64,000 nucleotides of DNA, taken from Leuconostoc citreum. GTDB taxonomy: Bacteria; Bacillota; Bacilli; Lactobacillales; Lactobacillaceae. Below the pieces are notes generated by a model. That model was not told the origin of the DNA and made no database searches. It saw only the letters and a list, made by a program, of their open reading frames with translations. The DNA lies in NCBI RefSeq assembly GCF_004354555.1, contig NZ_PUFH01000008.1:1-64000 (forward strand), written 5' to 3'. This document shows, piece by piece, positions 1-15,012 of the stretch (its first letter is position 1; each line of letters begins with the position of its first letter). The translations under genes were made by a program, and so were the position numbers.

Positions 1-26
1 AAATGCTTAGTGGAGTCGAGGGGAGT
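1..26. repeat. attL: duplicated ssrA 3' end
   Basis: This copy is identical to 14987-15012 over at least 26 bp; the match may extend left of the window. It is the displaced 3' terminus of ssrA, separated from the intact gene by the island. The integrase gene lies just inside. Identity stops after position 26, where the intact gene continues into the T-arm and this copy diverges. Confidence 0.9.
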
Positions 27-63
27 TACTACACCCCTGCCACATCAACAATTCTGGCGTTTT

Positions 64-79
64 GTACTATATTTAGTAC
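64..79. repeat. Small inverted repeat between attL and int
   Basis: GTACTA-TATT-TAGTAC is a perfect 6-bp stem with a 4-nt loop directly downstream of the integrase stop codon. No T-run follows it in the direction of int transcription, so it is a poor terminator. The AGTACC core at 75-80 recurs twice near the right end, so this may be part of an integrase arm-binding site. That role is inferred. Confidence 0.4.
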
Positions 80-82
80 CTT

Positions 83-1204
83 TTAATCAATTAAACCCGA
101 CAAAACATTACCTGTATCATCACTGGCTCGTTTTGTAATGTCGCTATACACATCTAAAGTCATAGATACATCCGCATGTCCTAAGTAAGTTTGTACTTGC
201 TTCACGCTTGCGCCCTGATCTAATGCCAATGTCGCCCATGTATGCCTTAACTTGTGCATAGATAACCCAACCGCAACATTATACTTATCACTGACATCAT
301 GTAGCCACTTATTTGGTCTCATGACCTGCAACGTATGCCCATGATTATTGAATACATAATCATCCCCGCTTTTATGGTTACTGACTTCATACCAATTAGA
401 CATCACAACTAACATCTTATTATCAATTTTAAGGGTGCGCCTACTTGTTTGGCTCTTAGGCGCTTTAATATAGGTACTACCATTTAAACCACGCCCCAAC
501 GCTTGCATAATACTTATATATCCATTGTCAAAGTCTATATTTTGCCATTGTAAAGCGAGTAGTTCCTCGGTTCTCATCCCCGTGAATGCACCTAATCTAA
601 GCAACGTATAGGCTTGCTGATTAATGTATTTGTATTGGCTATCTAGTACGTCAACAAACGCCTTGAACTCGTCAACATCCATAAATTGCCTAGGCTTATT
701 GATTGATCTGCGTGCCTTTGGCATATCTACCTTGGTAAATGGGTCTACATCAATCATATCCATACGCACTGCAATATTTAATAGTCTTTTGAAATAACCT
801 GTTATCTTACGATAATGCAATATTTTACCCTGCATTGTGTTAATATATCGTTGTAAGTTCAATGGCTTAATATCAGTTACCAATATATCGCCCCACTCGG
901 GGATGATATGGATGTTAAAAACGTTCATTGTTTTATTGAGCGTACTTTCTTCCACAGTATGCTGATAGGTATCAAGCCACATATTATACAACTCTTCAAC
1001 GGTCATCACGTTTGGGGTTGTTTTTTTGTTGTATTTACTTTGGCCATTATCAAACAAAACACTTTGATTATTAAACCATTGTCTAGCACTTTGTTTGCTT
1101 TCAAATCCTCGTTTCTTTACACGGACTTTTTGACTACTATTAATTAAATACCCATTTACTTCCCAAACTTTCCCTTTTGGTGTGTCAATTTGCTGAAATT
1201 TCAT
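83..1204 (-). CDS. int: Tyrosine site-specific integrase of the island
   Basis: This 373-residue tyrosine recombinase should integrate and excise the island at the ssrA att site. The N-terminal 60 residues are basic and resemble an arm-DNA-binding domain. Residues about 67-150 form a SAM-like core-binding domain. The catalytic domain shows R211 (in GMRTEE), K250, H317-x-x-R320 (in HKLRH), H343 (in LGHAD) and the nucleophile Y353 (in LDVYSD), so all expected active-site residues are present. It lies 57 bp inside attL, the usual place for an island integrase, and reads out toward the att site. It is the last gene of the leftward strand, 124 bp after the excisionase-like gene. Length and motifs are typical of integrases from Gram-positive temperate phages and satellites, and the gene looks intact. 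Confidence 0.96.
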   Translation of the reverse strand: MKFQQIDTPKGKVWEVNGYLINSSQKVRVKKRGFESKQSARQWFNNQSVLFDNGQSKYNKKTTPNVMTVEELYNMWLDTYQHTVEESTLNKTMNVFNIHIIPEWGDILVTDIKPLNLQRYINTMQGKILHYRKITGYFKRLLNIAVRMDMIDVDPFTKVDMPKARRSINKPRQFMDVDEFKAFVDVLDSQYKYINQQAYTLLRLGAFTGMRTEELLALQWQNIDFDNGYISIMQALGRGLNGSTYIKAPKSQTSRRTLKIDNKMLVVMSNWYEVSNHKSGDDYVFNNHGHTLQVMRPNKWLHDVSDKYNVAVGLSMHKLRHTWATLALDQGASVKQVQTYLGHADVSMTLDVYSDITKRASDDTGNVLSGLID

Positions 1205-1328
1205 GTTATACCTCTTTGCTACAAGCGAGTAAGCAGAGATTTAGATAAAATAAAAAAGCATGTTCACACGCTTTCATTATTTCACATTATCATGTTGTCT
1301 TGCCCTTGCTTAACTCTTTTTTAAACTC

Positions 1329-1529
1329 CTAATCATAATAATGGCGTACGGCTTCATCTATTTCATCACGATCATAGCGTAACCCGTGTGCTGTTGGATA
1401 GGCTCTCACTTTACCTGTATTCACATAACGTTTGATAAAAGTATTGTCTGCAACACTAATATATTTGTGCGCTTCATTGCGTTTCATCCACTTTGGCCAT
1501 AACTGGCGATGTTCTGTGTTTGCTGTCAT
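1329..1529 (-). CDS. Excisionase-like small helix-turn-helix protein
   Basis: This 66-residue protein has a MerR/excisionase-type winged-helix pattern: a helix-turn-helix around residues 17-40 (residues WMKRNEAHKYISV), followed by a wing-like segment and a C-terminal segment rich in D and E. The size and position immediately upstream of int suggest a recombination directionality factor, though a small transcription regulator is possible. The start is well supported: AAAGGAGAC overlaps the end of the upstream gene, whose TAG stop abuts this ATG, so the two are translationally coupled. No catalytic residues are expected. Excisionase function is inferred from fold and context only. Confidence 0.65.
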   Translation of the reverse strand: MTANTEHRQLWPKWMKRNEAHKYISVADNTFIKRYVNTGKVRAYPTAHGLRYDRDEIDEAVRHYYD

Positions 1530-1934
1530 CTAGTCTCCTTTCCACAATTCAAGTATTAATTTATTCACGTATCGCTCAATGCCATTAACATTGATATACT
1601 TAACCGCCAATGCTAATGCTAACCTGCCTTTGTAGACTAAGTGTATGCTCATTGACTGTGCGACATAAACATCAAAGCGTTTTGAATACTTGTTTGCATT
1701 CACATTAGCTGTTCGTTTACTCGCCATAGGGTGTGTTTCTTGATAGGCTCTGGTCTTATTGCCGTAAGTTGTATAGCTCAAAACATAGTTTATAGCTCTG
1801 CGATTAGTTAGCTTTCTAGTCATTAACTCATCCATAACGAGGTTGAATACATACACATAAAACATAGTGCTTTCTTTCTCTGCATAGGTTTTTTCTGGTC
1901 TCGGCAACCTATTCATATAATCTTGAATATCCAT
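1530..1934 (-). CDS. Terminase small subunit-like protein (TerS-like)
   Basis: This is a protein of about 134 residues from the chosen ATG; an in-frame TTG at 1961 would add nine residues. The segment GNKTRAYQETHP followed by SKRTANVNANKYSKR (about residues 57-88) resembles the N-terminal DNA-binding helix-turn-helix of phage small terminases (pattern N-T-Q-A-Y...A...TA..N..K.). In phage satellites a TerS homologue replaces the helper phage subunit so that satellite DNA is packaged into helper capsids. No large terminase or portal gene accompanies it, which fits a satellite rather than a prophage. It is unusual in sitting between the replication genes and xis/int; in classic staphylococcal islands terS is at the far end. 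The family call is by eye, and a generic phage HTH protein is the alternative. Confidence 0.5.
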   Translation of the reverse strand: MDIQDYMNRLPRPEKTYAEKESTMFYVYVFNLVMDELMTRKLTNRRAINYVLSYTTYGNKTRAYQETHPMASKRTANVNANKYSKRFDVYVAQSMSIHLVYKGRLALALAVKYINVNGIERYVNKLILELWKGD

Positions 1935-2137
1935 AAAAACTTTCTCACTAGTAAAAGGCAACCTCTACATTTTAATGTTCATAAGCTAAGTCCTTGCAAA
2001 CACTACATTTAAGACAGCCACACTGTATACCTTTTTATATTTTATTCATTAAAACAACCCTCAAAATACCTTTATAACAGTTTTTAAACGTGATTATTGC
2101 TATTTTAAAAGATGTCATTTTGTTCAGTTTTGTCTAC

Positions 2138-2482
2138 CTATTCAATGCCCCTCAATTCTAGCTCGGTCTCAAATTTAATTTGCGCACTGCGTGACTTTTG
2201 TTGTAATTGCAAATACTCTGCCCATATCTCTTGTAACTGCTCTTGTGACGGTTCACTCTTAGTAAAATCACTGGCTTCAAATCGTTCAACGTTGTAACCA
2301 AACATATTTAATGTCAACTCAAGCATTTTTGCTTTGTGTCTAGTGAGTTCTAACTGGTGTGCTGTCATAACGTCGTGTGTCTCTTGATTATGATTAACTT
2401 GTTCAAGAAACTTGATGTGTCTACGCTGTTCAAACAAATAGCCAATCATTGCTATAAATATAAAGCCAACTATATAATTCAT
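2138..2482 (-). CDS. Small membrane-anchored coiled-coil protein, unknown function
   Basis: The 114-residue product begins with a hydrophobic segment (about residues 2-16) that could be a single membrane anchor. It is followed by a basic RR and a long charged, helix-rich region with heptad-like spacing (residues 18-110). I do not recognise the family. It lies on the leftward strand between the helicase gene and the TerS-like gene. The start ATG is preceded by a GGGGATGA motif that also precedes other genes of this element. Membrane location is inferred from the hydrophobic N-terminus. Confidence 0.6.
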   Translation of the reverse strand: MNYIVGFIFIAMIGYLFEQRRHIKFLEQVNHNQETHDVMTAHQLELTRHKAKMLELTLNMFGYNVERFEASDFTKSEPSQEQLQEIWAEYLQLQQKSRSAQIKFETELELRGIE

Positions 2483-2503
2483 TTCATCCCCTTAACGACT
2501 GCG

Positions 2504-2650
2504 TCATATTGTCACACTCAACTTTTCCAGTCCTTGCTTAATTGCTTCAATCTGACAAAATTCGCCAAAACTGATACTAATATCATCTGTCTTATTTTTC
2601 ATTAAATCTTTGTAAGCTGTCATGCAGTTATAATAAAAATCTTTATTCAT
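2504..2650 (-). CDS. Small protein of 48 residues, unknown function
   Basis: This short reading frame encodes MNKDFYYNCMTAYKDLMK followed by 30 further residues ending in LSVTI. It has a clear ribosome binding site (AGAGGA, 5 nt before the ATG) and ends 21 bp before the start of the membrane-anchored protein gene in the same direction. The protein is soluble and mixed-charge with no recognised domain. The ribosome site and operon position are the evidence that it is real. Confidence 0.5.
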   Translation of the reverse strand: MNKDFYYNCMTAYKDLMKNKTDDISISFGEFCQIEAIKQGLEKLSVTI

Positions 2651-2670
2651 AATTCCTCTTTTCCTTATCA

Positions 2671-2924
2671 AATTGACTTTAAAATACTTTCAATTTACCT
2701 ATTATTGACTTTGCTAAAACGCTGTATCTGTTGTGCCACAAACCTTAAACCTAAATAATTGACTTTCTCGACCTTTTCTCGAAGTCCTTATATATACGTA
2801 TATATATTATTTATTCTAGTAACTTCAATAAAAAGTCAATAACATCAATAACCTTTATACACCAACGGTTACAAGCATTTTTTATGTCAATAATAGCTCT
2901 ATAAAACATCTGTTTAACGTCAAT
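2671..2924. other. Candidate iteron-type replication origin of the island
   Basis: Three copies of ATTGACTTT (2672-2680, 2704-2712, 2758-2766) lie on one side of an AT-rich segment containing an 18-bp palindrome (2789-2806, centre TACGTA). An inverted copy, AAAGTCAAT (2832-2840), and two shorter GTCAAT copies (2886-2891, 2919-2924) lie on the other side. The block sits just downstream of the helicase gene. Satellite origins are known to have iterons flanking an AT-rich unwinding region beside the replication gene. The repeats are seen directly; origin function is inferred. Confidence 0.55.
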
Positions 2925-4323
2925 CTATATACTTAATATCCAAAAATCGCTTAGTTGCTTTGCCGTGTTCATCATCTAAACTTGAAATAGTCACACTTTT
3001 TGAACTTTTAATACCTAAATGTTCCATACGACTGTAAAATGTGTTGCGGTTTATCGTTTCTTTCATACCCATATCTTCAACATCTCGACTAAATTGCTGA
3101 TACATATACTTGGCGGTTGGTCGCCTGTCTTTAGCTTCCTCCGTATGTTCATCTAGCCACTGTGAGACAATATCAGCGCTCTTTAGCCATTCTGCTGTCG
3201 CTTTCTGGACGTTTTCGGGGATGTTTAACGTCTTAGCTCGCTCTGCGTCCATAAATAGCTTAATGACCTTACGTGTAAACGCTGGGCGCTCATCTAATAA
3301 CTCGGCTTCATCAAAATAATCACTCTTGCCGTCTTTGGTAGTAAACCCCTTACCTTGCGTTGTGAGTACCAATGGTCTACGATCTAATCCGCTATCTCGT
3401 CTAATGTTGGGTAAGTCATTAGCTGAAAAAAATAGTGTGGCATAATTGACGATACTAAAAGCCTGCACACCCTTAGATTCCACTTCAAATCGTTCTTTAC
3501 CACTCACAGCTAGTTTGAGGTTCTCTGTGTTTGGCATGTAGTTAGCTGGTATATCACTGCCAATGTTTGCATACTTACCCACTAGCCCAACCGTTTTGAA
3601 TTTATCCCCAAATGCTTGTAAACTCAATTCACTGACGTTACCGCTATACAGTTTCTGACCAATATAAGTAAGCGCCGTGCCTTTTCCGTTACCACCTTTA
3701 CCATACAAAATGACAAAGTTTTGAAAGGGCAAGTAATTACGTTTAAAGCCATAACCAATAAACTTGTATAATAGCTCTGCATTTTCATCCCCTAACAGTC
3801 GGGTAAAAAACTCGTCCGTCTTGGGTGTCGGTAAATCTTTATCACTAACTGGATAATCTAACCCACCTAAAGCATGGTACTGTGATGCGTTTGGCTTAAT
3901 TTCTAACGTCCGCATATCCAATGTGCCATTAGTAAAGCTAACCATATAAGGCTTATCAGTAAAATCGATATAATCAGCCACATCTTTTACTGTGATTACT
4001 CGGATTAAGTCCACAATATTTTTGACTTGCTTGGCACTGGTTAGCTTTTTATGCTGTTTTAATAGTGTCGCCACTCTTGAACTTAACGCATTATCTGCCT
4101 GCTTCACATTCTTGTACCGTTTCCAATACTGACCGTTAAACAAATACCCTGCTAGATTATTGTTATCAGTGTAAAAATTAGTCTCTTTCGCCACAAACTC
4201 CGCTAATCGTTCAACATTCACTGTCGTCTTGCTGATTTCGCCTGTCTCGTTGTATTGCACATCCAACCAACTCGGCACTTTGTTCGTAACTTTTGGCATT
4301 GGTGTTGTATCAATCTCTGCCAT
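2920..4323 (-). CDS. Phage/plasmid replicative helicase, D5/P4-like superfamily 3
   Basis: This 467-residue protein matches the C-terminal half of P4/D5-type primase-helicases. The Walker A motif is GKGGNGKGT at residues 208-216. Other conserved elements follow: an acidic segment around IGSDIP (254-259), FSANDLP (299-305, sensor-like) and an arginine-rich SGLDRRPL (311-318). Residues 20-180 match the D5_N region that precedes the ATPase. It should unwind the island origin together with the prim-pol encoded just upstream, whose gene overlaps this one by 14 bp. In many satellites the two activities are fused in one protein; here they are split into adjacent genes. The candidate iteron origin lies immediately downstream. 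Confidence 0.92.
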   Translation of the reverse strand: MAEIDTTPMPKVTNKVPSWLDVQYNETGEISKTTVNVERLAEFVAKETNFYTDNNNLAGYLFNGQYWKRYKNVKQADNALSSRVATLLKQHKKLTSAKQVKNIVDLIRVITVKDVADYIDFTDKPYMVSFTNGTLDMRTLEIKPNASQYHALGGLDYPVSDKDLPTPKTDEFFTRLLGDENAELLYKFIGYGFKRNYLPFQNFVILYGKGGNGKGTALTYIGQKLYSGNVSELSLQAFGDKFKTVGLVGKYANIGSDIPANYMPNTENLKLAVSGKERFEVESKGVQAFSIVNYATLFFSANDLPNIRRDSGLDRRPLVLTTQGKGFTTKDGKSDYFDEAELLDERPAFTRKVIKLFMDAERAKTLNIPENVQKATAEWLKSADIVSQWLDEHTEEAKDRRPTAKYMYQQFSRDVEDMGMKETINRNTFYSRMEHLGIKSSKSVTISSLDDEHGKATKRFLDIKYID

Positions 4324-5134
4324 AGCTATTTATCCTCATTATTTTACGTTCCTCTCGCCTTCTTGCACTCATATACACCTTGCCTAGTTCATCATGGGGT
4401 AATGGTTCGTTACTGCGTTCATTGGTAATTTGTAAAATATCGTAAATGCTTTGTGGCTCAATATTTAAGGCAAACAAATACCCTGCTAAGCTCATCGCTT
4501 GATCGTTGCGTTGTCCTGTCTCAAAGCCATTTTTGACCATTAACCAACGGTCTACATTGCTGTATCTGCTCGTTGATTTTGTCTTTGATGTATTTGTACC
4601 ACCGTGATTATTTGCAAGCTGATACACCCACTCTGGCGCTTGCTGTATCGTCTCAAAAGGGGTAATTGCTCGATATGGTTGCTGATTGATAACACTGGGT
4701 GCAACAATGACCCCATGTTTGTTAGTCAAAAGGTCTACACCTTGCAAGGCGCTGACTTTCTCTGCTGGCTTAGTCTTGCCCTCGGTGATGAGATAAAAAG
4801 CGTGTAGTCCACCACTGGCTGTCCGTTCAACATAAGTGTCTTGGATAGTCTCTGGGTTGATGTCGTGCGACTTAAACCATGCGCTAATGCTTTTCATACC
4901 ATTGTGTTTATGCTTATCAATATCAACCACAATTAAATTACTCCGTGACAAGTCAATTCCCACATTGCCGTCTTGATACTCTGGATGTCCGTTTATCCAG
5001 TGTTTTAAATCATCCCCATTTTTAAAACTGTTATTGTACCCACCGCTGACTGCATTGTGCTTCTGATTAGGTAGCGCCATAAACACATAAGCACCTGTCT
5101 GTTGATATTGTTTGATTTGTTCCCACTTAGCCAC
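4310..5134 (-). CDS. Prim-pol domain protein (bifunctional primase/polymerase)
   Basis: This 274-residue protein has an archaeo-eukaryotic-type prim-pol core. Visible elements are GNVGIDLS, the metal-binding motif VVDIDKH (residues about 69-75), TASGGLHAFY (about 105-114, the conserved sGGxH motif) and VDLLTNKHGVIVAPS (about 133-147). It should synthesise primers, and possibly short DNA, at the island origin. It is followed by the SF3 helicase with a 14-bp overlap, so the pair probably acts as one replisome unit. Residues after about 175 are a linker and a small helical domain. I see nothing broken. The family call is firm; the exact priming activity is inferred. Confidence 0.88.
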   Translation of the reverse strand: MAKWEQIKQYQQTGAYVFMALPNQKHNAVSGGYNNSFKNGDDLKHWINGHPEYQDGNVGIDLSRSNLIVVDIDKHKHNGMKSISAWFKSHDINPETIQDTYVERTASGGLHAFYLITEGKTKPAEKVSALQGVDLLTNKHGVIVAPSVINQQPYRAITPFETIQQAPEWVYQLANNHGGTNTSKTKSTSRYSNVDRWLMVKNGFETGQRNDQAMSLAGYLFALNIEPQSIYDILQITNERSNEPLPHDELGKVYMSARRREERKIMRINSYGRD

Positions 5135-5136
5135 TG

Positions 5137-5319
5137 TTACACCCTGCCTTTAAGCGTTTGCAAACGTGTCTCAACTTCATTAAGGTCAGTCCCTATCCTT
5201 AACACCATGCTAATGAGTTTTTGTGGCTCTTTCTGATACCTAGCTAAATTGACAAGGCTCTTTGCACTCATCACACTTTCTAAGGCGTGATTAACCGCTA
5301 CTCGTTGTGATTGTGTCAT
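5137..5319 (-). CDS. Small helical protein of 60 residues, unknown function
   Basis: This 60-residue protein is predicted to be all helix (MTQSQRVAVNHALES to the end) with regularly spaced leucines and no recognised domain. It lies 2 bp upstream of the prim-pol gene and 2 bp downstream of the winged-helix gene, tightly packed in the same operon. Short helical proteins are common in satellite replication modules. Its role is unknown. Confidence 0.55.
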   Translation of the reverse strand: MTQSQRVAVNHALESVMSAKSLVNLARYQKEPQKLISMVLRIGTDLNEVETRLQTLKGRV

Positions 5320-5321: not shown

Positions 5322-5639
5322 TTAAACCCTCGCAAATCTTTCTTCATGCTTCAACAACGCATTAATGATTGTTTGTTGACTATTAACACTCTTTTGTAAG
5401 GTGTTCACTGTTTCCCAAAACTCGTTACTTGTAACAATAAGATACATGCCACCGTGCGCTTGGCGGTTACTCCCGATTAAATACCCACGTTTACGCAAAT
5501 CTGCGACAATATCACTCACACGCTTTTTATTAATCCGCAATAAGTAAGCCAACTTCTCCAATGTAATTGCTTGCGCACGTCCCGCGGGCAATGTATTTAG
5601 TATCTGCTGTTCAATGTTTGATAATGGTGTTTCTGTCAT
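5322..5639 (-). CDS. Winged helix-turn-helix DNA-binding protein
   Basis: From the chosen ATG the protein has about 105 residues. Residues 8-60 read as a winged helix (IEQQILNTLP, then ITLEKLAYLLRINKKRVSDIVADLRKRG, then a GGMYL wing), followed by a C-terminal helix. This pattern is common in phage replication-accessory and regulatory proteins. I chose the ATG at 5639 because it overlaps the upstream stop codon as ATGA and is preceded by GAGGCGA; a longer form starting at 5672 would overlap the upstream gene more. It probably acts on island DNA as a regulator or replication accessory factor. Confidence 0.65.
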   Translation of the reverse strand: MTETPLSNIEQQILNTLPAGRAQAITLEKLAYLLRINKKRVSDIVADLRKRGYLIGSNRQAHGGMYLIVTSNEFWETVNTLQKSVNSQQTIINALLKHEERFARV

Positions 5640-5914
5640 TGTTGGTCGCCTCGCTCGAAACTGTCTAACCAATCGTGAAATCTAATTTCATCTACAGGCT
5701 GAAACGTTTTTTTGTTTAAATCAACGCTGAACATTGGTTCGTTAAATAACGAGTTGATGTAATCAACTTGAGCCAATGTAATATAAAATTTTGTATTTTT
5801 ATCCTTATCCATGTTAAAATGTGTATAGCAAAAGCCATGATATAGGCGTTTGTAGCAAGGCTCATCCGTAAGTTTGGTCGCTCGGGGATGTGCTTTTTTT
5901 GTGCCCTTTTTCAT
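5636..5914 (-). CDS. Island protein of 92 residues, unknown function
   Basis: This basic N-terminus (MKKGTKKAHPRATK) is followed by a cysteine- and aromatic-containing segment (CYKRLYHGFCYTHF) and an acidic C-terminus. I do not recognise the family. The start has a strong ribosome site, AAAGGACGG, 6 nt upstream, and the stop overlaps the next start as ATGA. It is a real member of the early leftward operon, but its function cannot be deduced. Confidence 0.6.
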   Translation of the reverse strand: MKKGTKKAHPRATKLTDEPCYKRLYHGFCYTHFNMDKDKNTKFYITLAQVDYINSLFNEPMFSVDLNKKTFQPVDEIRFHDWLDSFERGDQQ

Positions 5915-5929
5915 GCTTTGCCGTCCTTT

Positions 5930-6163
5930 CTATTTAGTTACTTGAAATAATTCACGTTCAATGGCTTTAATATCATAGATCACTACTTTGTCATGTTTAT
6001 AACCTGTGATAAGTCCTTGTCGTTTCCAGCTTTTAACCGTTCCCAAACTCACATCAAAATGTTCCGCCACTTTCTCAGCTCGTTTCCAGACATGCGTATT
6101 TTGTCTGAACTGAAATGCCAGTTCTGCTAGTTCTTCCATTAGATCATCATTACTTACTGCCAT
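5930..6163 (-). CDS. Small helix-turn-helix protein of the early operon
   Basis: This 77-residue protein has a helix-turn-helix at residues about 28-55 (AEKVAEHFDVSLGTVKSWKRQG) followed by a short strand pair, the layout of MerR-like or phage-type DNA-binding proteins. It could be an excisionase- or AlpA-like regulator of the island. It lies downstream of the 53-residue gene on the same strand and follows a GGGGATGAT ribosome-site variant. Function is inferred from the fold only. Confidence 0.65.
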   Translation of the reverse strand: MAVSNDDLMEELAELAFQFRQNTHVWKRAEKVAEHFDVSLGTVKSWKRQGLITGYKHDKVVIYDIKAIERELFQVTK

Positions 6164-6164
6164 A

Positions 6165-6326
6165 TCATCCCCTAATAATCAATCGTGTGGTGGCTCTGTC
6201 TAACAACTCATAAGCTTGCATGATTTCAAACTGTGCTTGTTCGTTACCTGCTACCCTGTCACTGTTAGCAATGTCAACCAAGGGCTTATACATGCGCTCT
6301 AACGTTCTCACATACACATTGCTCAT
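6165..6326 (-). CDS. Small protein of 53 residues, unknown function
   Basis: This reading frame (starting MSNVYVRTLERMYKPLVD, ending TTRLIIRG) has a near-perfect ribosome site, AAAGGAGGAAC, 7 nt before the ATG. Its start overlaps the stop of the preceding 35-residue frame as ATGA and its stop overlaps the next start. It is soluble and mostly helical, with no recognised domain. Coupling on both sides supports a real gene. Confidence 0.6.
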   Translation of the reverse strand: MSNVYVRTLERMYKPLVDIANSDRVAGNEQAQFEIMQAYELLDRATTRLIIRG

Positions 6327-6430
6327 GCTTTGCGTTCCTCCTTTAGACTATCTCCAACAACCACACCCATAATAAAGGCGCTACCTACTACAAATACAAG
6401 CCCGATAACTTGTGCTAACCATAATGTCAT
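6323..6430 (-). CDS. Single-pass membrane peptide of 35 residues
   Basis: The product is a hydrophobic helix (MTLWLAQVIGLVFVV and on to GVVVGD) followed by a charged tail, SLKEERKA, giving one predicted membrane span. The ATG follows AGGACTAAGA. The stop overlaps the start of the 53-residue gene as ATGA, and the ribosome site of that gene lies inside this one. Small membrane peptides are common in early operons of phages and satellites. Function is unknown. Confidence 0.5.
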   Translation of the reverse strand: MTLWLAQVIGLVFVVGSAFIMGVVVGDSLKEERKA

Positions 6431-6432
6431 TC

Positions 6433-6690
6433 TTAGTCCTCCTTTTCTGTTTGTGCTTGATTTTCTAAACCGCCTTGCACATTCTCGTTATCTTCCATAC
6501 GGTCATAATATTTGAGTTGCATGTCTTCCAAATCTTTCAACATGTTAATGACTGTTGGCGTTGTGATATGGTCGCCTGCTTTCAAGCTATCAACCAATGT
6601 GAGCGCTAATGTTTCTTGTACATCCTCAAGCGCGCTGTTCGTGTCCTTGATAACTTCTGCTTCATTAAATAGTGCGTTTGATACTGCCAT
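6433..6690 (-). CDS. First gene of the leftward operon, unknown function
   Basis: This is an 85-residue acidic, helix-rich protein beginning MAVSNALFNEAEVIKD. I chose the ATG at 6690 because AGGAGA lies 8 nt upstream; a longer frame from 6729 lacks one. It is the first gene after the divergent control region and so should be the gene most directly controlled by the repressor. No domain is recognised. By position it could be an early regulator or replication modulator, but that is a guess. Confidence 0.6.
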   Translation of the reverse strand: MAVSNALFNEAEVIKDTNSALEDVQETLALTLVDSLKAGDHITTPTVINMLKDLEDMQLKYYDRMEDNENVQGGLENQAQTEKED

Positions 6691-6794
6691 GATAATTTCT
6701 CCTGTCTCGTTGCTTTTATAGTGATTCACTCTTGCACTTAATATCCTTACTTGCCTTTAAATGACCTTGCTTGTCTGGTATGATTAGTGTATAT

Positions 6795-6872
6795 GTAACC
6801 AACTGAACATTATAAACGTAACCTTAGGTACGTATCGTTATTTATAATTTACACTTTGATACCTTAGGTTAC
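6795..6872. promoter_or_regulatory. Divergent control region with paired operators
   Basis: Two near-identical sites, GTAACCTTAGGTAC (6818-6831) and ATACCTTAGGTTAC (6859-6872), share the core ACCTTAGGT and are close to inverted copies of each other. A further GTAACC half-site lies at 6795-6800. A leftward -10 TATAAT maps to 6808-6813, so the first site would cover the promoter spacer. The region separates the leftward replication operon from the rightward repressor gene and should be the repressor-bound lysis/lysogeny-style switch of the island. Operators are seen; which protein binds them is inferred. Confidence 0.6.
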
Positions 6873-6953
6873 AACGAGCTTTATTGTTTCTTAACTTAGT
6901 TTTATTTTTAGTTAACACCTTTATTTTTTCTTAATATTTAAGCGAGGTACATT

Positions 6954-7322
6954 ATGTCTGTGACTGCTAACCGTATAAAAGAATTACGTACACAAAAAAA
7001 GCTCACCCAAAGTGAACTTGCTGAAATAATCAACACATCCCGTGTAACCATTTCACGTATTGAGAGTGAGGCACGCCAGCCCTCTTTTGCCATGCTCTCA
7101 TTGATTGCTAACGCTTTAGATACAACTATGGACTATTTACAGGGCAAAACAGATAATGTGCTTAAAACGTCTCAAACTAGCTCTGATGACGGGGATGATA
7201 AGCCACTTACTCCCAACCAACGGCGCATAGCATATAGTATTGACCCCTCTGTGTCTGACGAGGAACGCGAAGACATTATAAAAATGGTTCATCTCGCTAT
7301 GAAACACCGCAGACGCATTTAA
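6954..7322 (+). CDS. XRE-family repressor of the island (CI/Stl/ImmR-like)
   Basis: This 122-residue protein has a classical HTH_XRE domain at residues 7-62 (RIKELRTQKKLTQSELAE, then SRVTISRIESEARQPSF). A C-terminal tail of about 50 residues is probably for oligomerisation. It is transcribed away from the replication operon and is followed 15 bp later by an ImmA-like metallopeptidase, the arrangement seen in ICEBs1 (ImmR/ImmA) and in several satellites and prophages. It should hold the leftward operon silent by binding the ACCTTAGGT sites. What relieves repression, either the partner protease or a helper-phage protein, cannot be told from the sequence. Confidence 0.85.
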   Translation: MSVTANRIKELRTQKKLTQSELAEIINTSRVTISRIESEARQPSFAMLSLIANALDTTMDYLQGKTDNVLKTSQTSSDDGDDKPLTPNQRRIAYSIDPSVSDEEREDIIKMVHLAMKHRRRI

Positions 7323-7740: not shown

Positions 7741-7854
7741 GCAATAAAACATTCTAAATTAGACTCTGTTAATGAATGTATCGAAATTTTCAACTTCATT
7801 TAATAAATTTATGTTATGAATTTTTGTATAAAATTACTGTAGAGAGTATTGAAT

Positions 7855-8325
7855 ATGGACATTAAAGTAAAAAAAATGTTTGAACATTATAAAATAAAAT
7901 ATTGTTTGTACAAACATTCTCCTATATACACGATTGCAGACGCTCAACAACTTCCTTTCATTTCTGATATTTATGAGGTTAAAAATCTGTTTTTAAGAAA
8001 TCAAAAAAAAACTGCCTATTATTTGTTTAGTCTACCAGTAAATAGTTCTTTAACGCTTAAAGACATTGCCTATATTACAATGAATAAAAAAGTTAGTTTT
8101 GCCTCTGACCAAGATTTAATGAATATACTATCAGTATCTTCAGGTAGCGTGTCCATATTAAATGCACTAAATGATGATAATAAATCAGTTGAATATTATA
8201 TTTCTAATGATATTTTAACAGAAAACAACGTGGCATATCATCCAAACCAAAATAATGAAACAGTTGTTTTCAATGGCTCAGAAATTACAAAGATTTTAGA
8301 TGGTTATAAATTACACGTACTATAA
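7855..8325 (+). CDS. YbaK/PrdX-like aminoacyl-tRNA deacylase domain protein
   Basis: This protein of about 156 residues resembles the stand-alone YbaK/ProX editing family. Such proteins hydrolyse mischarged tRNA, typically Ala-tRNA(Pro) or Cys-tRNA(Pro). Matching features are VKNLFLRNQKKTAYYLFSL (about residues 39-57), then VSFASDQDLMNIL (about 80-92), SSGSVSILNALND and a late HPN segment. A TTG at 7849 would add two residues, but I prefer the ATG at 7855. It is AT-rich and unlike its chromosomal surroundings. It starts the cargo block with DUF1275 and DUF1304 genes. Deacylase activity is inferred from family resemblance. Confidence 0.75.
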   Translation: MDIKVKKMFEHYKIKYCLYKHSPIYTIADAQQLPFISDIYEVKNLFLRNQKKTAYYLFSLPVNSSLTLKDIAYITMNKKVSFASDQDLMNILSVSSGSVSILNALNDDNKSVEYYISNDILTENNVAYHPNQNNETVVFNGSEITKILDGYKLHVL

Positions 8326-8383: not shown

Positions 8384-9073
8384 ATGAATACATATCTTCC
8401 AAAACGTATTGTCGTAAATTCTAATAATAGTCGTTTTTTTGCTATACTAATGGCTTTTTCCGGTGGCGTATCAGATGTTTACTGCCATATATACTTTCAT
8501 GGTCTAGTTGCAACTCAAACTGGAAACGTGATTTTATTAGCTTCTGATTTATCTCAAAAAAATTGGTCTCAAGTAATCCCTAAACTATTGTCGATACTTA
8601 CATTTTCGCTCGGATTTCTCGCAGGAATTTGGATCAAAGAAAAAAACGATCATTATTTATATTGGCGGAGTTACACAATGATTCCTGTTGTAATTGCTAG
8701 CCTACTAATTCCCTTTGCACCATATGACTTCCATCTACTTAAACTATGCTCGTTGGCATTTGGAACGGGTCTCCTAATGTTAACCTTCACAGGAGTTAGA
8801 GTTGAAAAAAATCAATACACAATAATGATGACTTCTGGTAATTATCGTAGAATGTTAACAGAATGGTATTACTATCTCACATCAAAAAATAAATCAGCCA
8901 TTTTAAAACGTAATGCTGAAAATTACACTATAGTTGTCATCTCTTTTCTAACTGGTGCCTGTCTTCTAGCTATTGTAAACCTTTTCTGGGGTCCATATAC
9001 TATTTGGCTAGCATCTATAACGTTCTTTTTAGCATTTATGATCGAATTTTCCCAAGCTTCGCGAAATAATTAG
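8384..9073 (+). CDS. DUF1275 (YoaK-like) membrane protein
   Basis: This 229-residue protein has about six predicted membrane segments. The N-terminal signature AFSGGVSDVYCHIYFHGL followed by ATQTGNVILLA (about residues 23-55) is typical of the DUF1275/YoaK family, whose function is not established. Transport or a membrane regulatory role has been suggested. It lies 58 bp after the deacylase-like gene and before the DUF1304 gene, and is AT-rich like them. It probably arrived as part of a cargo block. Confidence 0.85.
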   Translation: MNTYLPKRIVVNSNNSRFFAILMAFSGGVSDVYCHIYFHGLVATQTGNVILLASDLSQKNWSQVIPKLLSILTFSLGFLAGIWIKEKNDHYLYWRSYTMIPVVIASLLIPFAPYDFHLLKLCSLAFGTGLLMLTFTGVRVEKNQYTIMMTSGNYRRMLTEWYYYLTSKNKSAILKRNAENYTIVVISFLTGACLLAIVNLFWGPYTIWLASITFFLAFMIEFSQASRNN

Positions 9074-9142
9074 TTAATCAATACAGAATGGTAAATAAAA
9101 ATACGTGCCAGAACCACGTTAAAAGCAAATGGAAGAGAAAAA

Positions 9143-9508
9143 ATGAATTTAGTAATTACTATTATTAGCCTTTTAGTCGCCGTAGAATTTCTATACATTA
9201 TGTATTTAGAAACTTTTGCTACAACATCCCCAAATACAGCCAAGACATTTAACATGTCGGAAACTGATTTACAAAGTAAAAAAATACAGACTTTGTTAAA
9301 AAATCAAGGTGTTTACAACGGTTTGATTGCAGTGGGTATAATTTATTCACTATTCTTCACACACAACTACCACAACAGCTTACTTGCTATTATGATCTAT
9401 ATTATTTTAGTAGCTTTGTATGGTAGTTTCTCATCTGGAAATAAATCTATATTTTTCAAGCAAGGCACACTGGCTGTCATTGTAGCAATTTTATTATTGA
9501 TTAGTTAA
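9143..9508 (+). CDS. DUF1304 family small membrane protein
   Basis: This 121-residue protein has four predicted membrane helices. The motif LKNQGVYNGLIAVG (about residues 52-65), followed by an ALYGSF segment, matches DUF1304 proteins, which have no firm function. The ATG follows GAGAAAAA with moderate spacing. It is the third gene of the AT-rich cargo set on the plus strand, after DUF1275. It looks intact. Confidence 0.85.
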   Translation: MNLVITIISLLVAVEFLYIMYLETFATTSPNTAKTFNMSETDLQSKKIQTLLKNQGVYNGLIAVGIIYSLFFTHNYHNSLLAIMIYIILVALYGSFSSGNKSIFFKQGTLAVIVAILLLIS

Positions 9509-9618
9509 TTTTATAAGCACTCACAGAGTGCGTACATACGTGCCAAGCGTTCACGTTAAAAAGTTAAAAATAACAAGAATGCAATGTTTGAATACGAAAT
9601 CTAAAAAAGAAGACATCA

Positions 9619-10518
9619 ATGAGTAGAAAAGACAAACCAAAATTAAATACCCTTTCACTAATTAATCACATGAAATCGAAGGGAATAACTTTTTCATTAA
9701 TTTCAGAAGCCGAAGCAGAGCAATTTTTAGATACCAAAAATTACTATTTTAAAGCAACATCTTATCGCTCTAATTTCCCAAAAACAAATAGCAAATATGT
9801 AAATCTCGATTTCGCATATTTAGTAGAACTCGCAGCAATAGATGTACAGCTTAGACGATACCTTTTTGAAGTCGCTATGAATGTTGAACATGGGCTCAAA
9901 GTCAAAATGCTTGCAATCATTAACAATAATGACCAAGAAGACGGATACACAATAGTTGATGAATTTAAAAGTAGATATCAGAGTTACTATAACACTACTA
10001 TTGATTACATGAAAAAGAGTAAATATTCTCAGGATTTATACGCAAAACATAGCAAAGATCTTTCCGTCTGGGTTTTACTTGAAACAATGTCATTCGGAGC
10101 ACTCACAAAATTTATTGAATTTTACGCTAAAAAATACCCAAGTAAACAATTAAATACATTTGTAAATACAATGCGCTACGCAAAAAATATTCGTAATGCT
10201 GTAGCTCATTCATCTCCAATATTGATTAATTTGTTTACTTCGAAAGAATTTGTTCCAAAACCCTCAGCTGTGGTATCAAACTTTTCCCGGATTCATGGAA
10301 TTCAGAGACAATTTATTCAAGACATGAAAGTACATGATTTGGTAGCATTGTTTTATTTGAATAGACAACTTTCGAGTGAGCGCGCTAGATATCATACAGA
10401 GAAAAATGGTCGCGAAACACTAAATCGTCTGACACGACACAAGGAGTATTTCCAAGGGTTGCCATCTCTTCAACAATTTGAAATCGTATTCTCTCAAATT
10501 CTTGACACTCAAATCTAG
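9619..10518 (+). CDS. Abi_2 family abortive-infection protein (AbiD/AbiF-like)
   Basis: This 299-residue protein belongs by sequence to the Abi_2 (PF07751) group of lactococcal-type phage-resistance proteins. The N-terminal part (LSLINHMKSKGITF, then NYYFKATSYRSNF) and the helical core (EVAMNVEHGLKVKML) fit the family. The late motif IRNAVAHSSP gives R192-N-x3-H197, the RNase-type HEPN signature. It probably kills or arrests cells during phage infection, so the satellite may defend its host against phages that do not help it. The gene is monocistronic in appearance and is followed by a strong terminator. Its phage target cannot be read from the sequence. Confidence 0.88.
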   Translation: MSRKDKPKLNTLSLINHMKSKGITFSLISEAEAEQFLDTKNYYFKATSYRSNFPKTNSKYVNLDFAYLVELAAIDVQLRRYLFEVAMNVEHGLKVKMLAIINNNDQEDGYTIVDEFKSRYQSYYNTTIDYMKKSKYSQDLYAKHSKDLSVWVLLETMSFGALTKFIEFYAKKYPSKQLNTFVNTMRYAKNIRNAVAHSSPILINLFTSKEFVPKPSAVVSNFSRIHGIQRQFIQDMKVHDLVALFYLNRQLSSERARYHTEKNGRETLNRLTRHKEYFQGLPSLQQFEIVFSQILDTQI

Positions 10519-11550: not shown

Positions 11551-11838
11551 ATGTTTATAATTGAATTAACTTACATCAAACCGATTGCTGAAGTTGAACA
11601 TTTTTTGCCAGCTCATATTGAATACTTAGATAAGTACTATAAATCAGGGCATTTTATTATGTCTGGTAGAAAAGAACCACGAACAGGTGGCATGATTGTG
11701 GCTCAGGCCGAATCTTTGGAAGAGCTAACACAAATCTATAATACCGACCCATTTTTTATAAACAATATTGCTTCCTTTAATATAACTTACTTTGTTCCTT
11801 CAAAATGGGCAGAACAAATGAATAGCTATTTGTCATAG
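11551..11838 (+). CDS. YciI-like (YCII-related) protein
   Basis: This 95-residue protein shows the YCII pattern: MFIIELTYIKP at the start, the conserved His in LPAHIEYLDKYY (H22), then SGRKEPRTGG, and the DPF motif (about residues 71-73). YCII proteins are small ferredoxin-like folds, some with hydrolase or dehalogenase-type activity, and most are of unknown role. The gene has its own near-consensus promoter and stands alone between two copies of a 32-nt direct repeat, so it looks like a single-gene cargo module. Confidence 0.85.
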   Translation: MFIIELTYIKPIAEVEHFLPAHIEYLDKYYKSGHFIMSGRKEPRTGGMIVAQAESLEELTQIYNTDPFFINNIASFNITYFVPSKWAEQMNSYLS

Positions 11839-11851
11839 TTTGTAACGCATG

Positions 11852-11883: not shown

Positions 11884-12031
11884 GTGTCACATATGTAAAA
11901 CAGGTCACTATCACTCTGAGTGATAGCGGATTCAATGTAATTGATAACGGCTAATTTATTGATTAGTTTTTCTGTAAACATTTTTTAAAACCAAAAGACA
12001 AGCCATAATGTAATGTGCGCTCGTCTACTGT

Positions 12032-12445
12032 TTATCCAACAAGATTCATCTTTAATTGCTGTACCAATATCCTAACTTCATCACGTGTCTTTCTAAACTG
12101 ATTTTGAATAACCTCTTCTGGTCCTGTGGTGCTAGCCGGGTCAGTTAACGGCCAATGCAACCTTTTAATATTGGCTGGAGTAACAGGGCATTTATCATTG
12201 GCATCTCCACACAACGTAATAATATAGTCACAGTTAAATAAAAAATCGTTATCAATTAAATCGGACGTATGATTAGATATATCAACTCCCACTTCTGCCA
12301 TAACACTTACAGCTCTTTGATTTAATCCATGTTGTTCAATACCTGCACTCTTAATTATCCAGTTCTTAGGCATAATATCTTTCGCAAACCCTTCTGCTAT
12401 CTGACTACGGCAGGAATTTCCTGTACACAAAAAGTAAATTTTCAT
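12032..12445 (-). CDS. arsC: Thioredoxin-coupled arsenate reductase-type protein
   Basis: This 137-residue protein has the low-molecular-weight phosphatase-like P-loop CTGNSCRS (C7 to R13), and the two further redox cysteines C79 and C86 in LCGDANDKCP. This is the pattern of staphylococcal pI258-type ArsC, which reduces arsenate to arsenite using thioredoxin. No arsR, arsB or acr3 is visible nearby, so the arsenite would have to leave by a pump encoded elsewhere. A -10-like TATAAT (12488-12493) and a 10-bp palindrome GTTGTACAAC (12476-12485) lie upstream. It is probably cargo of the island. All catalytic residues look intact. Confidence 0.92.
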   Translation of the reverse strand: MKIYFLCTGNSCRSQIAEGFAKDIMPKNWIIKSAGIEQHGLNQRAVSVMAEVGVDISNHTSDLIDNDFLFNCDYIITLCGDANDKCPVTPANIKRLHWPLTDPASTTGPEEVIQNQFRKTRDEVRILVQQLKMNLVG

Positions 12446-13185: not shown

Positions 13186-14148
13186 TCAGACCTTTTTAAA
13201 TAATGGTTTCATAATTATGGGTGCTAGTATCGTTGAAACAATTACGGCAACAACAAATTCTGCTGACGTATCATCATTAATAATCTGTGATGATATACCT
13301 ATTTGAATAATTACAAGAGCCATCTCACCTCTAGAAATCATCCCCGCTCCTATTGCGTTTGCAACATTAACATTTAAACCTGAAAGTCTTGCTCCCCATA
13401 AAGACCCGATAAATTTGGTTGTAACAGCCAACACACTAAATATTATAATAGCTGTTAGCTTGTTCCCTAGTCCTTGAATCGCAACTTCAAGACCAATAGA
13501 TCCAAAGAATACTGGATAGAAAAACCAATTACCAATTTTTGTACTTAAAGCACCTACCTTATCAGAAAAATTAAATTTTCTCAATACTATTCCTAAGGCA
13601 AAAGCAAATAAGGGCAATAGACTATTTATCCCTAAGGCGCCTCCGCCTACAAAAACAGAGAATAACGTCACAGCAACCAAAGCAATTATATCATCCAACA
13701 CAGCTGCTGAAAGTATAATTGCCCCCATTGAAGTCGCTAATTTCTTTTGTTCGGCTAGTACAGCTAATGTGATTGAAATAGACGTTGCAGAGAAAACAAC
13801 CCCCGCAAATATAGCAGTTTGCATATTATATCCAAGCAATAGAAATGCAATCGGGAAAGCAATTACTGGTAATAGCACTCCCATGATTGCAATAAGCGAA
13901 GAGGCCTTAATATATTTTTTCATTTCTTTTACATCAGACTCTAGACCCGAATTTAACATTAACAAAAAAATACCTGTCTCAGCAAACAAGTGAATTAAAT
14001 AGCCTGGTTCTACTACATTCAACAAACTAGTTCCTAAAATGATACCTGACAATAGTTGTCCAACAACTTCAGACAACCCAAACCAAGTGCCTATTTTCCC
14101 AAGTACAACAGTAACTATAACTAGCAACAAAATTAATAGATATTCCAT
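13186..14148 (-). CDS. CPA2-family Na+/H+ (or K+/H+) antiporter
   Basis: This 320-residue membrane protein has about ten hydrophobic segments and the CPA2 signature, including GLSEVVGQLLSGIILG near the N-terminus and the ion-binding pair in AAVLDDIIALV (about residues 147-157). It belongs to the NapA/KefB-like exchangers that remove Na+ or K+ in return for protons. I place the start at the ATG at 14148, since AGGAGA lies 6 nt upstream and inside a longer frame. The protein is shorter than many relatives (380-400 residues), mainly at the C-terminus, with no TrkA domain. A structured leader lies upstream. It is likely cargo for salt or pH stress. Confidence 0.88.
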   Translation of the reverse strand: MEYLLILLLVIVTVVLGKIGTWFGLSEVVGQLLSGIILGTSLLNVVEPGYLIHLFAETGIFLLMLNSGLESDVKEMKKYIKASSLIAIMGVLLPVIAFPIAFLLLGYNMQTAIFAGVVFSATSISITLAVLAEQKKLATSMGAIILSAAVLDDIIALVAVTLFSVFVGGGALGINSLLPLFAFALGIVLRKFNFSDKVGALSTKIGNWFFYPVFFGSIGLEVAIQGLGNKLTAIIIFSVLAVTTKFIGSLWGARLSGLNVNVANAIGAGMISRGEMALVIIQIGISSQIINDDTSAEFVVAVIVSTILAPIIMKPLFKKV

Positions 14149-14232
14149 TATTTCTCCTAACATTTAAAAAGCCCCAAAAACAGCTAGTTCCCCGACTAAC
14201 CATTCTTGAAGCTTACGCCCAACCGTTCAAAT
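14149..14232 (-). promoter_or_regulatory. Structured leader of the antiporter gene
   Basis: The transcript would contain a stem pairing 14195-14201 with 14182-14188 (7 bp including two G-U pairs) around a CGGGGA loop. Flanking G-rich blocks, GGTTGGGCG and GGGGC, are followed by a T-run just before the start. Antiporter genes are often under ion or c-di-AMP riboswitches. I cannot match this to a named class. Confidence 0.35.
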
Positions 14233-14360
14233 TTAATTACGTTTACTATATCATAGTTTTGATGTTCAAATCAAATTTGATCATCTAGTTACATTTTTTT
14301 ATTCCTGCAATTAATTTTTGTGATGTTCTAGCACAACTGAATTCATACTACTTTGTCGGC

Positions 14361-14702
14361 TCACTCATTATACAATCTTGCCCGTGGTCGCTCTATCTTG
14401 CTGACAATGGCGTTTAATTCATTATTTAGTGCCACAATATAGCTAGTTGGTGCTACGATATTATAGAACTCTCCAAACGCTCTATTTTCGCGATATTTGA
14501 GCTTGTACATGTCTTTTAACTCTGGTGTAAGCTTGAGACTAAACTCGTCTAAAACACGCTTAATTTCACGTATAAACGGCTCGTTGTCTCGTCTATATTG
14601 ATTATCACTATCTGGGTACTTATCTATGTACTCAATCTGTAAATCTATCATCCCCATAAAATAACTTCTCAATATTTCACGATTAGTCCATTGGTTTGTC
14701 AT
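14361..14702 (-). CDS. ArpU/RinA-like phage regulator (tentative)
   Basis: This 113-residue charged, helix-rich protein contains LKLTPELKDMYKLKYREN (about residues 56-73) followed by a possible helix-turn-helix. That layout recalls ArpU/RinA-type late-gene activators of Gram-positive phages (pattern L..L...L..KY). It has its own upstream region with a TGTATATATACA palindrome (14744-14755). It is the gene closest to attR. In a satellite, such a protein could tie cargo or packaging expression to a helper phage. I am not certain of the family; a hypothetical protein of unknown role is the alternative. Confidence 0.45.
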   Translation of the reverse strand: MTNQWTNREILRSYFMGMIDLQIEYIDKYPDSDNQYRRDNEPFIREIKRVLDEFSLKLTPELKDMYKLKYRENRAFGEFYNIVAPTSYIVALNNELNAIVSKIERPRARLYNE

Positions 14703-14743
14703 AGTTACCTCTTTAATGAGTTGGTATTATATGAATATTATAC

Positions 14744-14755
14744 TGTATATATACA
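14744..14755. promoter_or_regulatory. Palindromic operator candidate
   Basis: TGTATATATACA is a perfect 12-bp palindrome in the promoter region of the ArpU-like gene, and TATAAT-like elements lie beside it. It may be a repressor site or simply AT-rich promoter sequence. Confidence 0.35.
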
Positions 14756-14832
14756 ATTTATTTTAGTATATATGCTGATTATGTACCACATCCTGCTGAT
14801 GTGCTAAATATTTCCCATTTAGACAAATAAAA

Positions 14833-14850
14833 AACGGCTTAAATGCCGTT
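14833..14850 (-). terminator. Island-supplied terminator for ssrA
   Basis: AACGGC pairs with GCCGTT around a 6-nt loop, and on the minus strand a run of six T follows. The first gene upstream in this direction is ssrA, 147 bp away. Because integration displaced the original downstream DNA, the island provides the end of the ssrA transcript. Confidence 0.65.
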
Positions 14851-14873
14851 ACACTGCCTACTCGCTCGGTTAT

Positions 14874-14897
14874 AAAAAGTACCTAAAAAAGTACCTA
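14874..14897. repeat. Tandem 12-bp repeats near attR (integrase arm-site candidates)
   Basis: AAAAAGTACCTA occurs twice in perfect tandem (14874-14885 and 14886-14897), about 90 bp inside attR. AGTACC also occurs 75-80 bp from the left end, in the same orientation. Repeats shared by both ends of an element are expected for integrase arm-type binding sites. The function is inferred. Confidence 0.5.
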
Positions 14898-14986
14898 AAT
14901 GTGTGAAATGCTATGAAATACAGTGCAACGTTTTTCATAAGAAAAGGCGCTACATCAAGGTTTTTGAAACCTTATGCAACGCCATG

Positions 14987-15012
14987 AAATGCTTAGTGGA
15001 GTCGAGGGGAGT
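14987..15012. repeat. attR: ssrA 3' end joined to the intact gene
   Basis: This 26-bp segment is identical to positions 1-26 and forms the 3' end of the intact tmRNA gene. Integration therefore left ssrA functional on this side and placed the duplicate at the far end. Confidence 0.9.

Follow-up and report, generated by a model that had tools for sequence, protein, structure and literature searches.

The first 15,012 bp of a 64,000-nucleotide stretch of Leuconostoc citreum DNA (the window, bases 1-64000 of contig C3 in a host genome of 1.84 Mb and 10 contigs) are, taken as a whole, best explained as an integrative phage satellite of the kind known as phage-inducible chromosomal islands (PICIs), a reading that is very probable on the evidence of sequence. 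It is favoured because the element (window 1-15012) combines duplicated attachment (att) sites with genes for an integrase, an excisionase (Xis)-like protein, a Prim-Pol primase, a superfamily 3 (SF3) helicase and an XRE/ImmA-like pair, and holds no recognised structural genes. Two traces point to its excision: contigs C5 and C3 of the host assembly end at the att limits, and a sister satellite is found in attP form in the record of phage LLC-1. An earlier note had called the element a PICI-like satellite in the ssrA gene of a Leuconostoc. Its att sites, its int, regulator and replication genes and its origin repeats support that view, as does the circular state of the sister element, whereas the call of a small terminase (TerS) gene did not survive; the note had also missed the exact second copy of the element, the relatives that encode capsids and share its integrase family, and the cassette arrays. 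The arrays lie outside the original question and are the most novel part of the analysis.

The element is bounded by exact 26-bp direct repeats, the attL core (1..26, plus strand) and the attR core (14987..15012, plus strand), and the duplication of the ssrA 3' end described in the earlier note is thus confirmed. The right copy lies inside the 3' end of the integration target, the minus-strand tmRNA gene ssrA (14996..15352, tag AKNENSFAIAA). The same 26-mer occurs once in LLC-1 and also at ssrA of Leuconostoc lactis KCTC 3528 (G007), so that the element has the specific attachment site that belongs to the PICI features taken here from PMC6092414. Inwards from attL, the core genes are read on the minus strand. 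A 373-aa tyrosine integrase (83..1204, read toward attL; PF00589 3.7e-26, phrog_1 2.7e-65) is followed by a 66-aa Xis-like helix-turn-helix (HTH) protein (1329..1529; phrog_66 excisionase 5.6e-4, phrog_668 1e-6) that is 76-91% identical in LLC-1, G011, G007 and G005, the G numbers denoting other genomes, here of Leuconostoc. Next to it stands a conserved core gene (1530..1937) encoding 135 aa from an ATG, or 143 aa from a TTG (1530-1961), with 70-86% identity in the same four relatives; the profile of this 135-143 aa gene found matches in 4 of 395 genomes of the order, one of them weak and in a frame with stops. A 114-aa core gene (2138..2482) has counterparts of 40-53% identity in the corresponding position of LLC-1, G011, G007 and G005, and a small core ORF of 55 aa (2504..2671) is 81% identical in LLC-1 and 79% in G011.

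The replication module comprises two genes that the earlier note had recognised. The 467-aa D5-like SF3 helicase (2920..4323, minus; PF19263 (DUF5906) 3.8e-17, PF08706 (D5_N) 3.8e-9) is 93-95% identical in LLC-1, G011 and L. falkenbergense LMG 10779 (G013), and is found in G007 as two pieces at 95% and 88%. The 274-aa Prim-Pol primase (4310..5134, minus) matches PF09250 (6.7e-20) and PF08708 (PriCT_1, 1.6e-10). Directly 3' of the helicase gene lies a candidate replication origin (2672..2919, 72% A+T), already proposed in the earlier note, in which ATTGAC/TATTGA words, chosen after inspection, are over-represented around a ATATATATACGTATATAT palindrome. A blind test for repeated words gave p=0.02 at this locus, and repeated 7-mers 3' of the helicase, with no word preset, exceeded shuffles (p<=0.05) in 16 of the 24 helicase loci taken into the test (26 were found). 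The window therefore has the repeats beside a replication gene that characterise PICI-type origins. Upstream in the operon follow a small core ORF of 60 aa (5137..5319, minus; 87-92% identical in LLC-1, G011, G013 and G007), a 116-aa winged-helix protein (5322..5672, minus; phrog_2113 1.3e-12; 97-98% in G007 and LLC-1, 92% in G005, 52% in G011) and small early-operon genes of 92, 77, 53 and 98 aa (5636..6729, minus) with homologues in the same order in LLC-1, G011, G007 and G005. A divergent control region (6730..6953), with conserved blocks in 6 aligned elements, separates this operon from an XRE repressor-like gene (6954..7322, plus; PF01381 (HTH_3) 6.6e-17) and an ImmA/IrrE-like metallopeptidase gene (7338..7646, plus) whose HEYGH sequence gives an M78-like HExxH motif (phrog_87 4.6e-11; PF06114 4.5e-4, below cut-off), in agreement with the divergent switch of the earlier note. 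Capsid, portal, tail and terminase families had no match at E 1e-3 in the PHROGs scan, which covered 20 of the 23 ORFs (all except the YCII, ArsC and antiporter genes). The element thus carries integrase, regulator and replication genes without genes for capsid, tail or large terminase (TerL), a further PICI feature and as the earlier note had it.

The host assembly contains the element twice. A search at E<=0.001 finds the 26-mer at 4 exact sites in the host genome, which are the two ends of each of two copies, and the second copy, the final 15,012 bp of contig C5, is identical letter for letter. C5 halts at the final base of the att repeat and C3 opens at its first; the window starts at the first attL base since C3 begins there, and the left flank of the element sits on C5. 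An epimerase-like gene on C5, left of the element, and ssrA stand in the same order and orientation no more than 10 kb apart in 8 of 18 other Leuconostoc genomes (G003, G004, G005, G006, G008, G010, G011 and G018), so that integration at a single locus, rather than two, is the likeliest arrangement. Against it count the genomes in which the two genes lie far apart on one contig (5 of 18: G001, G012, G014, G015 and G016) or on separate contigs (4 of 18); in the remaining genome the epimerase-like gene had no match. If there is one locus, the contigs would stop at the att limits because reads also connect the two ends of the element, right to left, and the assembly pattern points to an excised circle or a tandem copy. 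Technical overlaps at contig ends do occur, and the two exact copies could be an artefact of the assembly, in which case the reads would hold no att-att junction; this is unlikely, given that both contigs hold the whole element and stop exactly at the limits of the maximal att repeat, which is where a graph branch from an att-att junction, in circle or tandem, is expected.

The second trace comes from the phage LLC-1 record (KJ608189; marked UNVERIFIED and partial, annotated host Lactococcus lactis), the only match of the core among 50,697 phage records. A temperate phage occupies positions 1-38140, where terminase, head, tail and lysis genes are present; a gap of 243 N (38141-38383) separates it from a sister satellite at 38384-50014, which has 81% identity over 86% of the 7.7-kb core query. 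This satellite part of 11.6 kb, about 0.3 of the phage part, is circularly permuted and opened at the Prim-Pol/helicase boundary. Its one 26-bp att core, at 42609, joins the int end to the far end, which makes it a closed attP. The record has the look of two molecules scaffolded together, a 38-kb phage and an 11.6-kb circular satellite. An attP-form satellite in a phage record is what co-packaging would give and is suggestive in that sense, and LLC-1 is a candidate helper phage.

The same core gene order recurs in LLC-1, G011 and G005, and G007 and G013 carry parts of it on contig ends. Targets and direct repeats differ: ssrA and 26 bp in the window, tRNA-Glu and 14 bp in G011, tRNA-Ser(GCT) and 16 bp in G005; the G007 parts are located at ssrA. 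By eye, and with no family search, no structural genes were recognised among the listed ORFs of the LLC-1 satellite, G011 and G005. Compared with the window, the G005 helicase is only 24% identical while its Prim-Pol (67%), winged-helix protein (92%) and integrase (86%) stay similar; replication parts have therefore been swapped. In the window, LLC-1 and G011 the sequence that follows the helicase gene contains ATTGAC/TATTGA words, in G005 it contains TTGTGC words instead (words chosen after inspection), and the origin seems to follow the helicase swap. Neither plasmid records, searched with the 7.7-kb core, nor viral contigs, searched with the helicase, gave a match (in the latter case no confirmed one); the 143-aa gene had one partial match among viral contigs (39%, residues 1-52), on a contig resembling another phage.

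Two more distant elements link this family to satellites that make their own capsids. Those in G001 (L056 3368-17944) and Fructobacillus fructosus (L072 9950-20698) share its integrase (66-69% identical to that of the window) and Xis-like protein (78-80%), and carry a packaging/capsid block between the helicase and xis/int, a position held by the 135-143 aa gene in the family of the window. Pfam identifies TerS (PF05119), portal (PF04860) and capsid (PF05065) genes in the G001 block; position and inspection by eye were the sole basis for naming its 611-aa TerL, its HNH and protease genes and everything in the Fructobacillus block. Both elements look like capsid-forming PICIs (cf-PICIs), which encode their own capsid, portal and terminase, genes that are present in L056 whereas none was found in the element of the window. 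Two Convivina elements show neither the block nor the 135-143 aa gene. A 14.5-kb record of Lacticaseibacillus phage R23.1 (OP869847) encodes a related helicase, and its size and gene layout suggest a capsid-forming satellite.

Several points weigh against the satellite reading. No packaging gene came out of the TerS tests. The earlier note had seen TerS in the gene at 1530-1961, which matches no Pfam family, has a single PHROG match at E=0.7 and, by profile, resembles none of the local phage TerS proteins; with the tests by Pfam, PHROGs and profile comparison negative and the structure model too weak to count either way, the TerS identity is unsupported and the gene stands as a conserved core gene. 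The 77-aa HTH gene (5930-6163) has weak matches to TerS families (phrog_57 0.0032, phrog_509 0.013) and to Phage_Nu1 (0.04), which may reflect only its HTH; these two PHROG matches are the closest that the scan came to a structural or terminase family. Neither the LLC-1 phage nor the resident prophage shares with the satellite a word that clearly marks a pac or cos site. The longest word common to LLC-1 phage and satellite is 18 bp (14-17 in 30 shuffles), and those common to the element and three resident-prophage pieces are 14, 15 and 16 bp, inside the shuffle range. Common words of at least 13 bp outnumber the shuffles (39 against 19.9 for LLC-1; 12, 26 and 24 against 8.6, 17.9 and 16.1 for the prophage pieces), a surplus that coding composition may explain. 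A 17-mer in LLC-1 terS and the satellite winged-helix gene was considered as a packaging word and dropped, as 1 of 30 shuffles reached 17; the window copy has two differences. LLC-1, moreover, is a single UNVERIFIED record, and carry-over of other DNA is possible. Of 5 carriers, 3 have an LLC-1-like large terminase (threshold E 1e-80, picked after the search), as do 3 of the 14 non-carriers (Fisher p=0.15), and the blind iteron test was non-significant at 8 loci, G005 (0.14) and G013 (0.13) among them.

The alternatives to a satellite fare less well. A decayed prophage that has retained integration and replication genes might be considered, given that D5-like helicases also occur in full streptococcal phages; it is strongly disfavoured and extremely improbable, for the same core with both ends recurs in LLC-1, G011 and G005 with no structural gene recognised by eye, and the scanned ORFs of the window likewise had no structural match. 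The earlier note had named structural-gene remnants just outside the window as evidence for such decay, and none was seen by eye among the ORFs of C5 20-40 kb (no family search). A plasmid-like or mobilizable integrative element moving without phage help would agree with the self-contained integration and replication set and with packaging being unproven. It is nevertheless quite improbable: no relaxase was found among the 20 ORFs scanned with Pfam, the sister element sits in a phage record, satellites that encode capsids have related integrases, and the core is without a match among plasmid records, which also answers the concern of the earlier note that the helicase and TerS-like genes might belong to plasmids only. 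Within the LLC-1 record the satellite sits between head genes, as it would if the record were a true composite genome of a phage with an embedded satellite, in the manner of helper-embedded PICIs. The joins in the record fall at the Prim-Pol/helicase boundary, one of them being the 243 N, with the att site closed inside; a composite genome is accordingly very improbable. The element of the window is not itself a helper-embedded PICI, for those integrate inside a late gene of the helper prophage and it is at ssrA.

On the satellite reading, the likely cycle runs from derepression through excision at ssrA and iteron replication to passage in phage particles, with only the excision product seen in sequence. 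The XRE repressor and the ImmA-like peptidase would hold the element silent until a helper phage lifts repression. Int and the Xis-like protein would then recombine the two ssrA att sites into a circle, the attP product of which is seen in the sister element; Prim-Pol and the SF3 helicase would replicate it, starting at the iterons that follow the helicase gene, and its DNA would travel in helper particles, as the LLC-1 record suggests. The host carries a possible helper in a complete-looking prophage on C6 (about 35800-82000), with TerS identified by Pfam and TerL, capsid and tail genes by eye. PF04860 was not found in the host genome although this prophage is present, so that PF04860 alone would have been a misleading test here. 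A degraded second prophage gene set lies near C6 103-106 kb.

The cargo zone provides the unexpected part. Downstream of a DUF1304 gene (9143..9508, plus; PF06993 9.4e-31) lies a boundary element of about 60 nt (9508..9570, plus), recognised by sequence comparison and a covariance model and forming two hairpins, GCACTC-ACA-GAGTGC and ACGTG-loop-CACGT; a weak copy precedes the gene (9080..9133, plus; model R1, E=0.018). A 51-bp block 3' of the DUF1304 gene is identical in LLC-1, where it stands between unrelated genes. Its 27-bp core (at most 2 mismatches) has 13 sites in 8 of 150 related genomes, two of them being the two copies of the present element, and the reversed pattern has none; a scan of viral contigs did not find the core. 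At E<=0.001 the covariance model matches 24 of 60 genomes: every one of the 19 Leuconostoc, plus 4 from elsewhere in the family and 1 from elsewhere in the order; weaker matches may be due to chance. No Rfam family matched window 9508-9570 at E<=1. Weak copies were also seen in the lysogeny modules of phage LLC-1 and of the prophage of the host.

The boundary element is located between one stop codon and the next start codon, in some places as an array with one small ORF per interval. In 51 copies (57 matches less the five weakest and one on the opposite strand; some loci, in G010, G011 and G018, are near-duplicates), an ORF of at least 50 aa starts within 120 nt downstream of 40, 23 of these at 9-15 nt, and a same-strand ORF stops between 80 nt before and 12 nt after the first base of 40. 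Reversed orientation gave 5 of 51 starts, and random positions 32% for starts and 17.5% for stops. At 16 loci, 42 boundary elements were collected, of which 37 have a gene upstream and 38 a gene downstream. They are 41 of 47 matches (two read from the window and not from its copy L006) plus the weak window copy; left out were two matches on the opposite strand (L120 and L124), a Convivina match, the copy in the LLC-1 phage and the L006 duplicates of C5. The array loci hold 36 gene families, 13 of them at two or more loci. Of the 30 ordered neighbour pairs, 3 occur at two loci, and one 68-aa family has four different downstream neighbours. The DUF1304 cassette recurs in another genus (G025) as a single 463-bp block, 93.3% identical, with both ends in the boundary element. 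Loci of different genomes share 83 homology blocks that are on the same strand and 150-1500 bp long. Of the 332 ends counted for these, 94 lie within 15 bp of a boundary element, and in 18 blocks this holds for both ends; displacing the elements by 100-600 bp gives a mean of 23.6 ends, and none of 2000 trials reached 94. Each of nine 20-kb array loci, chosen for their arrays, holds a tRNA or tmRNA gene oriented as in the satellites.

Comparison among the loci shows cargo zones apparently built from exchangeable one-gene units, exchanged between elements at the boundary element. The wider claim, that satellites and satellite remnants of Leuconostoc and its near relatives carry integron-like single-gene cassette arrays that amount to a new exchange system without an integron integrase, is put forward tentatively, at a little under an even chance. 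The likeliest mechanism of exchange, though weakly held, would be homologous recombination in the common boundary sequence aided by phage or host recombinases; an enzyme may instead be responsible. Two circumstances detract from the claim: the homology blocks overlap and are not independent, and the alignment used to count hairpin covariation had itself been fitted to the structure. A somewhat less probable, still serious, competitor holds that the boundary element serves simply as a conserved regulatory RNA between cistrons and that the apparent shuffling stems from ordinary gene gain and loss. Such an RNA would suit the covarying hairpin pairs (two-sided changes in 8 of 11 stem pairs across the 51 aligned copies, as high in 0 of 500 shuffles; a set of 12 elements proved too small, with 47 of 500 shuffles reaching its value), the 23 of 40 copies with a downstream start that lie 9-15 nt before it, and the weak copies in phage lysogeny modules. 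It does not predict that homology blocks begin and end at the boundary element more often than at shifted positions.

In integron cassette arrays and in clusters of attC sites lacking integron integrases (CALINs), single genes in one orientation are each joined to a short palindromic element and shuffled between arrays, and the arrays described here resemble them in their single genes, common orientation and short palindromic element. The differences are several. The integron integrase profile TIGR02249 was not matched over its cut-off in any of 19 genomes (best 95 against 265 bits), nor in any of 14 control genomes, which leaves the search without a positive control, and a nearby IntI is not needed for a CALIN. 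The boundary element is conserved in sequence and, compared by eye with the attC consensus, appears to lack its R''/R' ends, and the arrays stand in Gram-positive satellites.

The rest of the cargo zone begins with an aminoacyl-tRNA editing domain protein (7849..8325, plus; PF04073 1.4e-17) and a DUF1275 membrane protein (8384..9073, plus; PF06912 1.2e-28). Beyond the DUF1304 cassette lies a predicted AbiD-like Abi_2 abortive-infection gene (9619..10518, plus; PF07751 3.3e-22, phrog_2158 7.3e-45, PADLOC AbiD 3.3e-21), which fits the defence cargo of other satellites. A YCII-domain protein (11551..11838, plus; PF03795 5.1e-14), a thioredoxin-type arsenate reductase, ArsC (12032..12445, minus; TIGR02691 4.2e-59, above cut-off), and a CPA2-type cation:proton antiporter (13186..14163, minus; TIGR00932 8.3e-31, below cut-off) follow. 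Directly upstream of the antiporter is a possible Na+ riboswitch with a shortened first hairpin (14182..14224, minus; RF03071 25.4 bits), also seen upstream of the CPA2 antiporter at L053 6042-6080 (18.9 bits) and L083 1803-1843 (20.9 bits); all three loci score below the gathering score of 40.5. The cargo zone (8-15 kb) has 31-34% G+C, against 36-42% over most of the core.

Adjoining attR is a gene for a 113-aa protein (14361..14702, minus) whose N-terminal part resembles phage DUF722 proteins (profile probability 86%; E=0.08 in a single-sequence search). It lies at the opposite end from int when integrated, and on the same strand and 3' of int across attP. Homologues occupy the same place in G007 and G005; G011 has a DUF722-like gene there (below the Pfam cut-off) and G007 a similar one. 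The protein may be a late regulator expressed after circularization. Between this gene and attR is an arm-like repeat (14906..14986) that, taken with the core, matches the C5 sequence at attL with 90% identity over 107 nt. Repeats of this type, of about 110 bp (L006 4274-4380), are dispersed across Leuconostoc genomes, several beside tRNA or tmRNA genes, and are probably the att arms of past and present islands. A related-satellite remnant adjoins the element at ssrA (C5 about 34400-40353), and another lies at tRNA-Glu (C9 about 310400-314100) in the same genome. Judging from the arm-like repeat and the remnant left of attL, islands have accreted at ssrA.

Set against known satellites, the element shares att repeats, integrase, and regulatory and replication genes with the PICIs, among them the Staphylococcus aureus pathogenicity islands (SaPIs) and the StCIs of Streptococcus thermophilus, and agrees with the StCIs in size and lack of structural genes (PMC13376191); the same paper reports at least 16 StCIs with abortive-infection or restriction systems. 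It departs from PICIs in lacking a supported TerS (StCIs were not compared gene by gene), in having a 135-aa core gene of its own, in targeting ssrA and tRNA 3' ends, in an integrase that closes the early operon and in cassette-type cargo. The PICMI satellites of Vibrio (PMC10803314) are alike in a primase/helicase with DUF5906, in having no supported TerS and in a small gene set without capsid remodelling; published PICMIs differ in being bounded by fis and in their three core proteins. No paper among the matches listed describes the present elements by title or abstract; coverage of subscription journals was thin, and Leuconostoc entries may stand in the tables of other papers.

For Leuconostoc, a genus of food and dairy importance, the analysis adds a phage-satellite family with traces of excision in the sequence and a candidate helper in LLC-1, and it links capsid-less and capsid-encoding satellites through a common integrase. 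If the cassette interpretation is correct, a new exchange system would supply phage satellites with accessory and defence genes. Confirmation of the arrays would reveal how cargo is put together and swapped in a Gram-positive satellite, and would open gene exchange between satellites to direct test.

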